From contig JAQVGD010000014.1 in the NCBI GenBank assembly GCA_028696945.1, positions 1 to 32,676 of the forward strand: a DNA stretch of 32,676 nt, read 5' to 3'. Shown piece after piece: positions 20,369 to 32,400 of the stretch; positions within the stretch are counted from its first letter, which is position 1; each line of letters begins with the position of its first letter. The notes below the pieces were generated by a model, which had not been told where the DNA came from, ran no database searches, and saw only the letters and a program-made list of their open reading frames with translations. The translations under genes were made by a program, and so were the position numbers. This DNA comes from Lutibacter sp. GTDB lineage: Bacteria > Bacteroidota > Bacteroidia > Flavobacteriales > Flavobacteriaceae.

Positions 20369-20456
20369 ATGAAACGAGCATATCAAATTATGATACACAG
20401 AGGAATGATTAATGGCGAACTGCATCTGTACCAACAAAAAAATAAAATATAAACAG
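20369..20456 (+). repeat. 88-bp leader element, copy A
   Basis: Eighty-eight bases from ATGAAACGAGC to AAACAG, ending exactly before the ATG of the zinc-finger gene. Copies B and C are at 29275-29362 and 29363-29450. It contains a short ORF from its own first ATG (20369-20452, MKRAYQIMIHRGMINGELHL then YQQKNKI, 27 residues). A second ATG at 20412 is in frame with the downstream gene. Confidence 0.88.
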
Positions 20457-20459
20457 ATG
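20381..20459 (+). promoter_or_regulatory. Candidate start-codon-sequestering RNA switch, copy A
   Basis: Stem 1 is TATCA (20381-20385) / TGATA (20391-20395). TCTGT at 20425-20429 can pair either with ACAGA at 20397-20401, or, as CATCTGT (20423-20429), with ACAGATG (20453-20459), which includes the start codon. The two pairings exclude each other. Folding is by eye only. Confidence 0.5.
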
Positions 20460-20804
20460 AAAAAAAAATGCCTAGAATGTGACGAGCCTTTTAGCGGAAG
20501 GGTTGATAAAAAATTCTGTTCGGATTATTGTAGAAATAGCTACAACAACAAAATTGACAAAGACAGTAAAAATTTAATTAGAAACACCAATAATTGGCTT
20601 AGGAAAAACCATAGATTGCTTTCTCAACTAAACGAAACAGGAAAAACCAAAGTTACCAAAAGAAAACTGCTGGACGGGAATTTCGATTTTAACTATTTCA
20701 CGTCAATTTATACCACAAAAACTGGAAATACCTATTTTTACATTTATGATCAAGGTTATTTGGCTTTGGAAAATGACTATTATTTGTTGATTAAAAGGGA
20801 ATAA
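20457..20804 (+). CDS. Small zinc-finger-like protein of unknown function
   Basis: A 115-residue cytoplasmic protein beginning MKKKCLECDEPFSGRVDKKF. C5-x2-C8 and C21-x3-C25 (FCSDYCRNSYNN) form a treble-clef/zinc-ribbon-like site of the kind in DUF2116-type and MYND-like small fingers. The rest is basic, then ends in an aromatic-rich strand region (NTYFYIYDQGYLALENDYYL). I recall similar short proteins across Flavobacteriia as hypotheticals. The start at 20457 keeps the finger intact; an in-frame ATG at 20412 would add 15 residues encoded by the 88-bp repeat. No function is assigned. The leader element directly before its ATG suggests translational control. Confidence 0.8.
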   Translation: MKKKCLECDEPFSGRVDKKFCSDYCRNSYNNKIDKDSKNLIRNTNNWLRKNHRLLSQLNETGKTKVTKRKLLDGNFDFNYFTSIYTTKTGNTYFYIYDQGYLALENDYYLLIKRE

Positions 20805-23737: not shown

Positions 23738-23756
23738 TTTTATAAAATTATATGTA

Positions 23757-23810
23757 GGGACAGGTCGCGACCTGTCCGTTCATTAGGGACAGGTCGCGAT
23801 CTGTCCGTTC
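23757..23810. repeat. Tandem 29-bp palindromic repeat
   Basis: Two units with a 29-base period. The first holds the perfect 20-bp palindrome GGACAGGTCGCGACCTGTCC (23758-23777). The second (23787-23806) has one change (GATC for GACC). Each is followed by GTTC. They could form strong hairpins in either transcript. Confidence 0.85.
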
Positions 23811-23887
23811 TAAAAATCTGGTCATATTACTGATTCAAAATTCATCATTCAAAATATCATTTTCCTATTTGCCACTGCCTTTTTAAG

Positions 23888-24033: not shown

Positions 24034-24049
24034 ATTAATTGCGGTTGCA

Positions 24050-24220
24050 CTTCGGTCTTCCGACTTCGGTCTTCCGACTTCGGTCTTCCGACTTCGGTCT
24101 TCCGACTTCGGTCTTCCGACTTCGGTCTTCCGACTTCGGTCTTCCGACTTCGGTCTCCCGTCTTCGATCTCCCGTCTTCCGACTTCTGTCTTCGGTCTTC
24201 CAACTTCCGCCTTCCGTCTT
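24050..24220. repeat. 14-bp tandem repeat array
   Basis: Seven exact copies of CTTCGGTCTTCCGA in a row (24050-24147), then a degenerate tail to about 24220 that stops 2 bases before the end of the TPR gene. The ORFs over it on both strands are low-complexity artefacts of the repeat. Confidence 0.93.
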
Positions 24221-24222
24221 CC

Positions 24223-29274: not shown

Positions 29275-29362
29275 ATGAAACGAGCATAACAAATTTTGAG
29301 ACACAGCAGAATGATTAATGGCGAACAGCAGCTGTACCAATAAAAAAATAAAAATTAAACAG
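29275..29362 (+). repeat. 88-bp leader element, copy B (internal, degenerate)
   Basis: First of two tandem copies. Its short ORF is broken by TAA at codon 5. Relative to copies A and C the segment ACAGA is ACAGC (29303-29307), and TCTGT is GCTGT (29331-29335), a paired change. The start-codon-type pairing loses one base pair, and stem 1 (TAACA/TGAGA) is disrupted. Confidence 0.88.
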
Positions 29363-29450
29363 ATGAAACGAGCGTGTCAAATTTTGATACACAGAGGAAT
29401 GATTAATGGCGAACTGCATCTGTACCAATAAAAAAATAAAAATTAAACAG
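29363..29450 (+). repeat. 88-bp leader element, copy C
   Basis: Second tandem copy, ending exactly before the protease ATG. Nearly identical to copy A 9 kb away. Its short ORF (29363-29431) reads MKRACQILIHRGMINGELHL then YQ, 22 residues. The in-frame ATG at 29406 would add 15 residues to the protease. Confidence 0.88.
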
Positions 29451-29453
29451 ATG
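29375..29453 (+). promoter_or_regulatory. Candidate start-codon-sequestering RNA switch, copy C
   Basis: Stem 1 is TGTCA (29375-29379) / TGATA (29385-29389) with one G-U pair. TCTGT (29419-29423) can pair with ACAGA (29391-29395), or within CATCTGT (29417-29423) with ACAGATG (29447-29453), covering the protease start codon. Same layout and spacing as copy A. Confidence 0.5.
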
Positions 29454-32400
29454 AAACAACGTTACAAAAAACGATTCCTTTTAACATTATCCTTTTGCCT
29501 TCTAATTTTCGCTGTTTCGGCGCAAAATTCCGATGATTTATGGTCTAAAAGCAATAGCCTTCAAAAAAGTAATTCTAAAAAATTAGCGAGAAAATCCATT
29601 CCGAATAAATTTGAGAGCTATGAGCTAAATTTAAACCAACTTAAAAGCAAGTTAAACAAGGCACCAAAGCGAAAAGAGAATTTAGATAAATCAAGCACTG
29701 TTTTAAGTTTTCCTAACGAAAACGGGAAATTGGAAAAATACCAAATTTTTGAAGCTTCCATCATGGAAGAAGGTCTTCAAAAAGAATATCCGAATATCAG
29801 GTCTTATGTTGGAAAAGGAGTGGACAATCCAGGTTCTGTAATTAGATTCAGCATAACGTCACTAGGTTTGCATGCGATGGTTTTGAGAAATGAAGAAGGA
29901 AGCGTTTATATTGATCCAACTACTGAAAACAGTAATTCTTATATGGTTTATTCCAGCAAAAGTTTACCTTCCATAGAACCTTTTGAATGTAAATTTGATG
30001 AGGTAAATACTTCTCAAAAAACGAGTGCAACAACTGCTGCGGCGAAATCTGATAATGCCAATGATGGAAAATTGAGAACTTTTAGGCTGGCTATTGCCAC
30101 AACTGGTGAATATTCTCAGTTTCATTTAAATAGGCAGAATATTAGTTCTTTAGCTCCAGACACCGAAAAAAAAGCAGCAGTTTTATCAGCAATTGTTACA
30201 ACGATGACAAGAGTAAACGGCATTTTTGAAAGAGATGTTTCACTAACCATGCAGTTGGTTGCTAACAACACGGAAATTATTTTTTTGGATGCCGCTACCG
30301 ATGGTTTTACAAATAATGATTCAAGTAAACTAATCGAGGAGAGCCAAACAATAATTAATTCTGTTATTGGAGCTGCCAATTATGACATTGGGCATACATT
30401 TAGTACAGGAGGCGGAGGTTTGGCAACCCTAAACGCCGCGTGTAATACAAGTTATAAAGCCAAGGGAATTACAGGGTCTTATAGTCCAATTGGTGACGCT
30501 TATGACATCGATTATGTTTCACATGAAATGGGACATCAGTATGGCGCAAATCACACTTTTAATGGTGATGCAGGAAATTGTGCAGGTGGCAATAGAAACT
30601 TAGGGACTGCAGTAGAGCCCGGAAGCGGTTCAACTATAATGTCTTATGCTGGACTTTGTGCACCACAAAATGTTCAAAATGATGCCGATGCCTATTTTCA
30701 TTTGGTAAGTATTCGGGAAATGTGGTCAAATATTTCAGCAGGAAATAGTACTTGTGCGGCTATTTCTGTGACAGGAAATAACGCCCCAACCTTAAATGAT
30801 ATTCCAAATTATACCATTCCGAAATCTACACCTTTTGTTTTAAATGCCAATGCATCAGATAGTAATGGAGATAGCTTAACCTATACTTGGGAGCAATTGG
30901 ATACCGAAATCGCTATCCATCCATTGGTTTCAACAGCCACTGGAGGTCCAGCTTTTAGATCAATTATGCCAAGTGTTTCTCCAAAACGTTATTTTCCAGA
31001 TCAAAAAACTGTGAATTTGGGGAATTTGTCGAATACTTGGGAAGTCTTGCCGTCTGTTGGCAGAACCATGAAATTTGGGGTAAATGTGAGAGACAATAAT
31101 AGTGTTGGCGGACAAACAGCCAGCAAGGAAACAACCGTTACGGTTGCCGGAGATACTGGTCCGTTTAAAGTTACCTCACAATTGACAGAAGTAACCTGGG
31201 CTGTCGGAACTTCTCAAACAATCACTTGGGATGTAGCCAATTCAAATTCAGTACCAGTAAATTGTTCTTTTGTAAATATTATTTTGTCTATCGATGGAGG
31301 TTTAACCTTTCCAATAACCTTGGCATCAAATATTTCAAATGATGGCTCTCATGATATAATTGTTCCACATATTGCAACCACTAAGGCTCGTATTAAAGTA
31401 GAAGGTTCGGGAAATATTTTTTATTCGGTAAACACCAAAAATATTACCATTCAAACTTCTGAATTTATTATGAATTTTGCCGCCTATTCTAAAAACGTGT
31501 GTATCCCAAACAATGCCGTTTATACCTTTACCTACAATACTTTTTTAGAATTTAATGAAACAACTACCTTTTCTGCTACTGGAAATCCAGCAGGTTCAAC
31601 GGTTACTTTTAACCCAGCCACCGCAACAAGCGATAATACAAGTGTTCAAGTGACAATTAGTGGAATTAACATTGTAGGAAATTATGATATATCAATAAAG
31701 GGAACATCAACTTCCGCTACAAAAACAACAAGTATTAATTTAGGTGTTTATGGCGCAACGGTTAATGCACCATTATTAGTTTCTCCTGCCAATAATGAAA
31801 TTGATGTATTAAATCCATATTATTTGAATTGGAATGATGATATAAATGCCACAAGTTATGATGTTCAAATCTCTGAAGATTCTGGTTTTGGCAACATATT
31901 AGAATCTGCCAATGTAAACATAAATACCTATACACCTCAAAATTTACAGTTGAAGACAGTTTATTATTGGAGGGTAAAATCTAAAAACGATTGCGGAGAG
32001 AGCGCCTTTTCAAGCATATTTAAATTTACAACTGAAAATGAAGTTTGCGATACAAATACTGCATTGAATGTGCCCAAAGATATCCCAGATTACAGTGCCA
32101 TAGGAGTTTCTTCAACGATAAGTATTACAACTAATAAAATTATTAGAGATGTAAATGTTACTGTAAATATTACGCATGAGTGGGTTGGGGATTTGGATTT
32201 AACATTAATAAGTCCTAGCGGAAAATCAGTACTCTTATCTTCCAATAATGGAGATGACGGAACAGGTTATTCAAATACTGTTTTTGATGATGATGCTTTA
32301 AACCCAATTAGAAATGGAGATGCTCCTTTTACTGGAACATTTAGTCCAGAAGGATCGTTGTCGAATTTTTATGATGAAGAATCTTTTGGTTTATGGACTT

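Follow-up and report, generated by a model that had tools for sequence, protein, structure and literature searches.

A repeat of about 90 bases immediately upstream of ATGAAA in Lutibacter and other Bacteroidia, a candidate non-autonomous mobile element

The window, i.e., the whole stretch of 32,676 nucleotides analyzed here (positions 1 to 32,676 of the forward strand of contig JAQVGD010000014.1, Lutibacter sp.), contains three copies of an 88-nt repeat, all on the plus strand and each followed directly on its 3' side by ATGAAA. Copy A (20369–20456), a single type I unit of 88 nt, directly abuts the ATG at 20457; its right boundary CAG and the target ATGAAA occupy 20454–20462, and this ATG is the probable start of a 115-amino-acid protein. 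Copies B (29275–29362) and C (29363–29450), which are also type I units of 88 nt, form a tandem pair reported by Tandem Repeats Finder at 29275–29457 (period 88, 2.1 copies). The boundary CAG and ATGAAA of copy C (29448–29456) mark the start of a gene for a reprolysin-like metallopeptidase with a P-domain, as identified by Pfam. Copies A and B are 93% and 91% identical to copy C, respectively, and the sequence of copy A is identical to that of a unit on another contig of the same genome (C45, locus L066). An earlier note on this DNA had described three 88-base copies running to the next ATGAAA, the near-identity of the distant copies A and C, and a tandem pair before a protease gene, all of which were confirmed. 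Its zinc-finger assignment for the product following copy A was not, as no Pfam match at E ≤ 0.01 was found for the 115-residue protein.

Within the copies, a hexamer CATCTG complementary to the boundary CAG|ATG is located at 20423–20428 in copy A, supported by covariation over 69 units, and at 29417–29422 in copy C, assigned by position and covariation; copy B carries CAGCTG (29329–29334), with one mismatch to the boundary. The left half of copy C includes the region of a bulged hairpin (GTGTCAAATTTTGATACACA, 29374–29393) that covaries class-wide and more weakly within the family. Other repeats are present in the window. The segment 20178–20240, just 5' of copy A, carries CGTCATTGCGAG, a string also found downstream of a Y1-type gene in L188. 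Positions 23747–23817 contain the palindrome GACAGGTCGCGACCTGTC twice; as it also adjoins a Y1-type gene on a different contig (L176), it looks like the REP family of that gene. A tandem array of 12.4 copies of a 14-base unit, ACTTCGGTCTTCCG, spans 24049–24221.

Full-length units were collected from stretches of the window genome, from the named records, from part of the Y1 loci, and from loci found in the genus search; this gave 254 units, or 244 after deduplication (227 type I and 17 type II). Among the 244, the commonest length is 88 nt, and 216 units measure 87–89 nt, the rest being 85, 86, 90, 91, or 98–113 nt long. The strict 88-base length proposed earlier thus holds for the three window copies, but in general 88 is just the commonest value between 85 and 113 nt. 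The right boundary is exact. From 135 array-terminal units in the window genome and related genomes, 124 were scored, nine at contig ends and two duplicates being set aside; [ACG]TG abuts directly in 123 of them and ATGAAA in 116, while in the single exception an ATG lies two bases farther on. A frame, defined as at least 60 codons or at least 30 running to the end of the stretch, is opened by the abutting codon at 94 of the 124 array ends, and eight of the 30 without such a frame then carry a partial or type II unit. In a logo of 115 downstream flanks, from which array ends followed by another unit were removed, positions 1–6 are conserved at 97–99% and little information is present from position 7 on. 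The target is the hexamer ATGAAA, with nothing beyond six bases. At the gcvT loci and the DUF302 site described below, as in the logo, the 3' junction lies at this short specific target with no staggered duplication, and a six-base duplication would be indistinguishable because the other side of the unit also carries ATGAAA. The consensus ends, ATGAAACGAGC and TAAACAn, form no terminal inverted repeats of the kind found in a MITE of a DDE transposon.

Units in the inspected arrays are arranged head-to-tail, not as inverse pairs, and several contigs of the window's assembly end inside such arrays. Type II units (ATGAAACGCCTAC...AATAGCAA) occur among type I units at L059, L078, L082, L086, L087, L089, L094, and other loci, and are often followed by a type I unit beginning ATAAAACG. 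At L067, L071, L082, L090, and L093, arrays sit within a different dispersed repeat, always at the identical position (TTTGTAGAAAA|units|ATGAAAAATTT). No exact empty copy of this carrier was found, and a 22-base pattern of the junction led to one place, with two mismatches; the carrier repeat and the units may move together.

The window genome contains at least 101 matches to copy C at E ≤ 0.001, either single or in head-to-tail arrays, a figure for which 40 of 128 first-look candidates were scored. This number excludes chance for the 88-nt repeat and shows that it is not a leader confined to two genes. Five unit sequences, that of copy A among them, recur unchanged on at least two contigs of the genome (eight recurring sequences were counted, three of those within one array). 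In the genus Lutibacter, matches were found in 29 of 38 genomes, with per-genome counts that are lower bounds, and the named records with the core pattern, among the matches listed, are mostly Lutibacter metagenome assemblies. With a cutoff of E ≤ 0.01, a sequence-only model built from 40 units (R1) detected the element in 115 of the 249 Flavobacteriaceae genomes, and 65 units from this search were inspected individually. Applied to 295 Bacteroidia genomes, the same model had matches at E ≤ 0.001 in 28, of which 26 belong to 16 other families. By rule, the layout CATnTG...A-rich...CAn'|ATGAA is present in eight of nine class-level loci, two of which (L328 and L332) represent the same unit and gene. 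One genome has an identical 89-nt unit at two loci with different flanks (L289 and L290). In the phage and plasmid collections, no match to the unit was found at E ≤ 1e-5.

Sites in the window and in 100 loci were classified from a simple ORF call. The 89 occupied ATGAAA sites comprise 69 start, 18 intergenic, and 2 genic sites, as against 114, 130, and 922, respectively, for unoccupied ATGAAA; 2 of the 20 occupied non-start sites actually lie within arrays. Most occupied sites are gene starts, the rest being non-start. Among occupied sites, starts are in 4.4-fold excess over intergenic positions (p = 9e-8), and therefore starts are either preferred or favored afterwards. The near absence of within-gene insertions would be expected if selection removes them. 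One unit splits a gene: at L095:2098–2184 it interrupts a DUF302 gene, and joining its flanks yields an uninterrupted frame that encodes the DUF302 domain.

The same site with and without units is seen at gcvT, which is present in 35 of the 38 genus genomes, 30 loci being read. Six loci carry units at one and the same point, flanked by a common upstream region and a common ATGAAA: G000 has five unit starts, counted by motif, and an assembly gap; G014 has two units; and G011, G030, G032, and G034 have one each, with an additional type II-like stretch by eye in G030. The junction has no unit in 19 loci, three of which read ATGAAG; unscored are L304 (G015), with only two bases upstream, and four loci where the start rule failed. 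On the gcvT tree, occupancy needs three changes when G015 is excluded, all forced by well-supported branches, and four, three of them forced, when G015 is included and counted as empty. One sister pair consists of G034 with a unit and G031 without. A single gain followed by two clean losses may account for the pattern on the tree. Units within one array tend, by eye, to share variants, from which it follows that arrays grow or homogenize locally, and this is what would result from nothing more than old local duplication and unequal recombination, the location at start codons being due to chance or drift. However, such a history would have to accommodate dozens of unrelated loci, an exact target, occupied and empty sites, and a split gene; it is already disfavored and has very little probability left.

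RNAalifold, applied to 40 units, proposed a sole pairing, that of the internal hexamer with the boundary. In this stem, CATnTG pairs with CAn'|ATG, i.e., with the three terminal bases of the element followed by the ATG of the target. Over 69 units, 97.1% of the cells of the six-pair stem are paired, compared with 5.8–53.6% for slid versions, and the fourth pair is GC in 42, CG in 20, AU in 2, UA in 1, UG in 1, and unpaired in 3. The covariation score was reached by 0 of 500 shuffles, and the count of pairs changed on both sides by 16 of 500. In the 244 units, mainly from Lutibacter, CATCTG faces CAGATG in 117, fully matched, and CAGCTG faces it in 74, leaving a mismatch opposite the A of ATG.

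A single covarying hairpin emerged. This bulged hairpin of the left half covaries in a class-level alignment of 28 sequences, which was chosen and read before the structure was named; 16 of the 28 lack the third pair. Support is weaker within the family: 72.4% of the hairpin's cells are paired, 55 of 68 lack the third pair, and shuffles do as well on two of five measures (pairs changed on both sides, 484 of 500 as high; pair types, 362 of 500). A folding-energy signal for the left region is confined to 18 class-level units, with mean z values of −1.53 and −1.46; the corresponding means were −0.15 and −0.35 for 64 family units and close to 0 for 84 Lutibacter units. Extra palindromes beside CATnTG occur in longer units only, at L095, L277, L280, L281, L336, and L338, and their sequence differs by genome.

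A covarying stem that takes in the start codon, together with the open frame at three quarters of the array ends and the excess of starts among occupied sites, is also what a selected cis-regulatory RNA leader would produce. CAUnUG would then pair with CAn'AUG and mask the start codon, leaving the A-rich ribosome-binding stretch as part of the loop, and translation of a mini-ORF from the unit's own AUG could shift the balance. This is unlikely on several counts. The downstream genes show no common theme by eye, units stand before non-start ATGAAA and within a gene, close relatives lack the unit at gcvT, and the start-codon mismatch affects 74 of the 244 units. The mini-ORF is not conserved: across 227 type I units, it has 14 codons in 72, 4 in 61, and 27 in 21, and 21 have no ATG; a peptide encoded by it was rejected for the same reason. 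Predicted RNA folds of the window copies show no marked excess over shuffles (z −0.57, 0.02, and −1.18); the fold of copy C (z −1.18) includes both the left hairpin and the boundary stem, and that of copy B is without the start-codon stem. No Rfam family accommodates the unit. A known RNA was likewise rejected as a candidate, with no match at the gathering score in the window, where the earlier note had recognized no riboswitch either, and only far sub-threshold matches.

Of the selected or mobile regulatory leader put forward in that note, the mobile part is retained, and the regulatory part is not, given the absence of a gene theme, the non-start sites, the empty sites, and the variable mini-ORF. 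The note had expected many matches before start codons with covarying stems, and both were found; instead of matches confined to one genome, random placement, and no covariation, there are matches across Flavobacteriaceae, array ends at ATGAAA, and a covarying stem. Regulation of the two window genes is possible but unsupported, and units may still affect the genes that carry them.

Collectively, the unit has the traits of a mobile element, namely, high copy number, an exact right boundary, a six-base target, occupied and empty sites, a split gene, class-wide spread, and a covarying pairing. The preferred reading, with a probability of roughly 0.55, is that the unit, some 90 bases long, is a non-autonomous mobile element that inserts directly on the 5' side of ATGAAA and is perhaps moved in trans by a Y1 transposase. 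In the proposed mechanism, an HUH/Y1 single-strand transposase of the IS200/REP type would act in trans on the strand 5'-TTTCAT|element...TTTCAT|, and the internal CATnTG would serve as a guide-like sequence for boundary and target. As the unit begins with ATGAAA and ends A-rich, insertion at a start codon would swap the ribosome-binding region and leave the protein untouched; such insertions would survive, and those within genes would be lost. Arrays might grow through insertion at the ATGAAA of older units or through recombination between units. The same product, with ATGAAA at both ends, head-to-tail arrays, and clean presence or absence, would be expected if the unit circularized and a tyrosine or serine site-specific recombinase inserted it by crossing over within a common ATGAAA core, much as integron cassettes are inserted. 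Recombinases of these two types usually need arms flanking the core. No such arms are apparent at the target side, because conservation there stops at six bases, and a recombinase of this kind seems distinctly unlikely.

For a non-autonomous element moved in trans, Y1 genes are the candidate mobilizers. Within the genus, Y1 genes (PF01797) are present in 20 of 38 genomes, namely, in 13 of the 14 with at least 20 listed unit matches versus 7 of the 24 others. Across Flavobacteriaceae, 97 of 249 genomes have a Y1 gene, and its presence is associated with at least 1, 4, or 8 unit matches with odds ratios of 2.2, 2.8, and 3.6 (p = 0.004, 0.002, and 0.003), as compared with 1.2, 1.1, and 0.9 for the IS110 control (PF02371); these tests ignore phylogeny, and the copy counts are the matches listed, i.e., lower bounds. 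In 9 of 27 family genomes with at least 8 unit matches, there is no Y1 match. Reverse-transcriptase genes (PF00078) gave odds ratios of 1.3, 1.9, and 1.9 at the same thresholds (p = 0.40, 0.07, and 0.12), none significant. This bears on insertion of an RNA copy, in which a reverse transcriptase would prime on TTTCAT-3' annealed to the AUGAAA downstream of the unit in a transcript. Since units precede coding sequence and share its orientation, a transcript would be expected to carry AUGAAA beside the unit; with no significant association between such genes and unit number, this route is improbable.

Regarding the candidate Y1 mobilizer, no Y1 gene flanked by units on both sides was found in 87 Y1 loci, which overlap in part and do not cover all Y1 matches. 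A unit on one side is present at L181, L188, L358, L370, and L372; that of L188 ends at the GTG start of a Y1-type gene and was taken as one more insertion rather than as evidence for a linked Y1 gene. Most of the 27 Y1 loci read by eye (13 and 14) have other palindromes beside the gene, and no gene-bearing IS200/IS605 element sharing the unit's ends was found in the Y1 loci or the partial unit matches inspected. A 196-amino-acid Y1 protein (L185) was rejected as the mobilizer: it matches 5 of the 38 genus genomes, does not track copy number, and is represented in the window genome by weak pieces only. In several genomes, among them G000 (C233, L177), Y1_Tnp matches lie inside open frames of about 620–1290 codons, a possible fusion. 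TnpA-REP genes are mostly single-copy and near their own REPs, according to the accessible part of one source (PMC8266576), and the accessible part of another (PMC6006769) reports a subclass in Bacteroidetes whose structures are atypical. On these grounds, a Y1 partner with unusual substrates is plausible, although unproven.

Comparison with known systems reveals both likenesses and differences. Like REPs of the REP/TnpA-REP system, as described in the accessible text of PMC8266576, the units are short, numerous, and mostly intergenic repeats, REPs being considered Y1-mobilized in trans, as the units may be. A bulge in the stem is conserved among E. coli REPs, by the same text (PMC8266576); the left hairpin of the unit, supported at class level and less so in the family, has a frequent mismatch at its third pair. 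REPs carry a conserved tetranucleotide, most often GTAG, before the palindrome; no conserved GTAG is present in unit consensus A1 or A3. Unlike REPs, the units have a boundary at ATGAAA, are arranged head-to-tail rather than as inverse pairs, and have no adjacent transposase gene that could be found. The accessible text on IS200/IS605 elements (PMC6006769) describes a one-sided short target at one end, a target-like terminal sequence, and an internal guide pairing with the cleavage site. The unit resembles these, its putative guide pairing being one that covaries in sequence alignments. However, IS200/IS605 elements have a hairpin at each end in that text (PMC6006769), as opposed to one covarying hairpin in the unit. 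The unit also differs from these elements and their short derivatives (PATEs) in that it has no transposase and no gene-bearing relative with the same ends was found, as well as in its six-base target and its placement at start codons. The BrickBuilt MITE of Porphyromonas gingivalis, also a member of the Bacteroidia, likewise occurs dispersed in the genome and contains tandem repeats, but the portion of its description consulted (PMC4596501) gives a 23-nt repeat, inverted leader and tail ends, and a distance of 49–591 nt from genes, whereas the unit is at start codons. TAACTGA direct repeats are also tandem, just upstream of start codons, and found in a few Bacteroidetes as well; in the available section of PMC4679880, they have a seven-base unit and no element boundary or structure like that of the ~90-base unit. 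The unit may work in the manner of REP or IS200-type elements, yet by the tests made it is not a member of either.

In most class-level subfamilies, the internal segment takes the form TTnCATn'TG, and it is possible, although doubtful, that this one segment is complementary to both the left end and the right boundary with its target. The element would then name its own target by pairing, aimed at start codons throughout Bacteroidia. The right-boundary half of this proposal is supported by covariation. For the left-end half, complementarity was seen by eye in several subfamilies and is not above shuffles: the left-end pairing (P1) had 75.9% of cells paired versus 75.6% in shuffled controls (226 of 500), and its covariation score was reached by 108 of 500. 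If the proposal is true, changing the internal segment should redirect insertion.

No published description of an element that targets ATGAAA was recognized in the literature searched, most subscription journals lying outside it. The units would thus constitute a class-wide and apparently undescribed family of mobile elements that lands at the start codon and supplies a new A-rich stretch while the protein remains intact. In some genomes, units have changed the 5' leaders of dozens of genes, and the unit makes it possible to ask directly whether an element that carries no enzyme has its target set by a short internal sequence.
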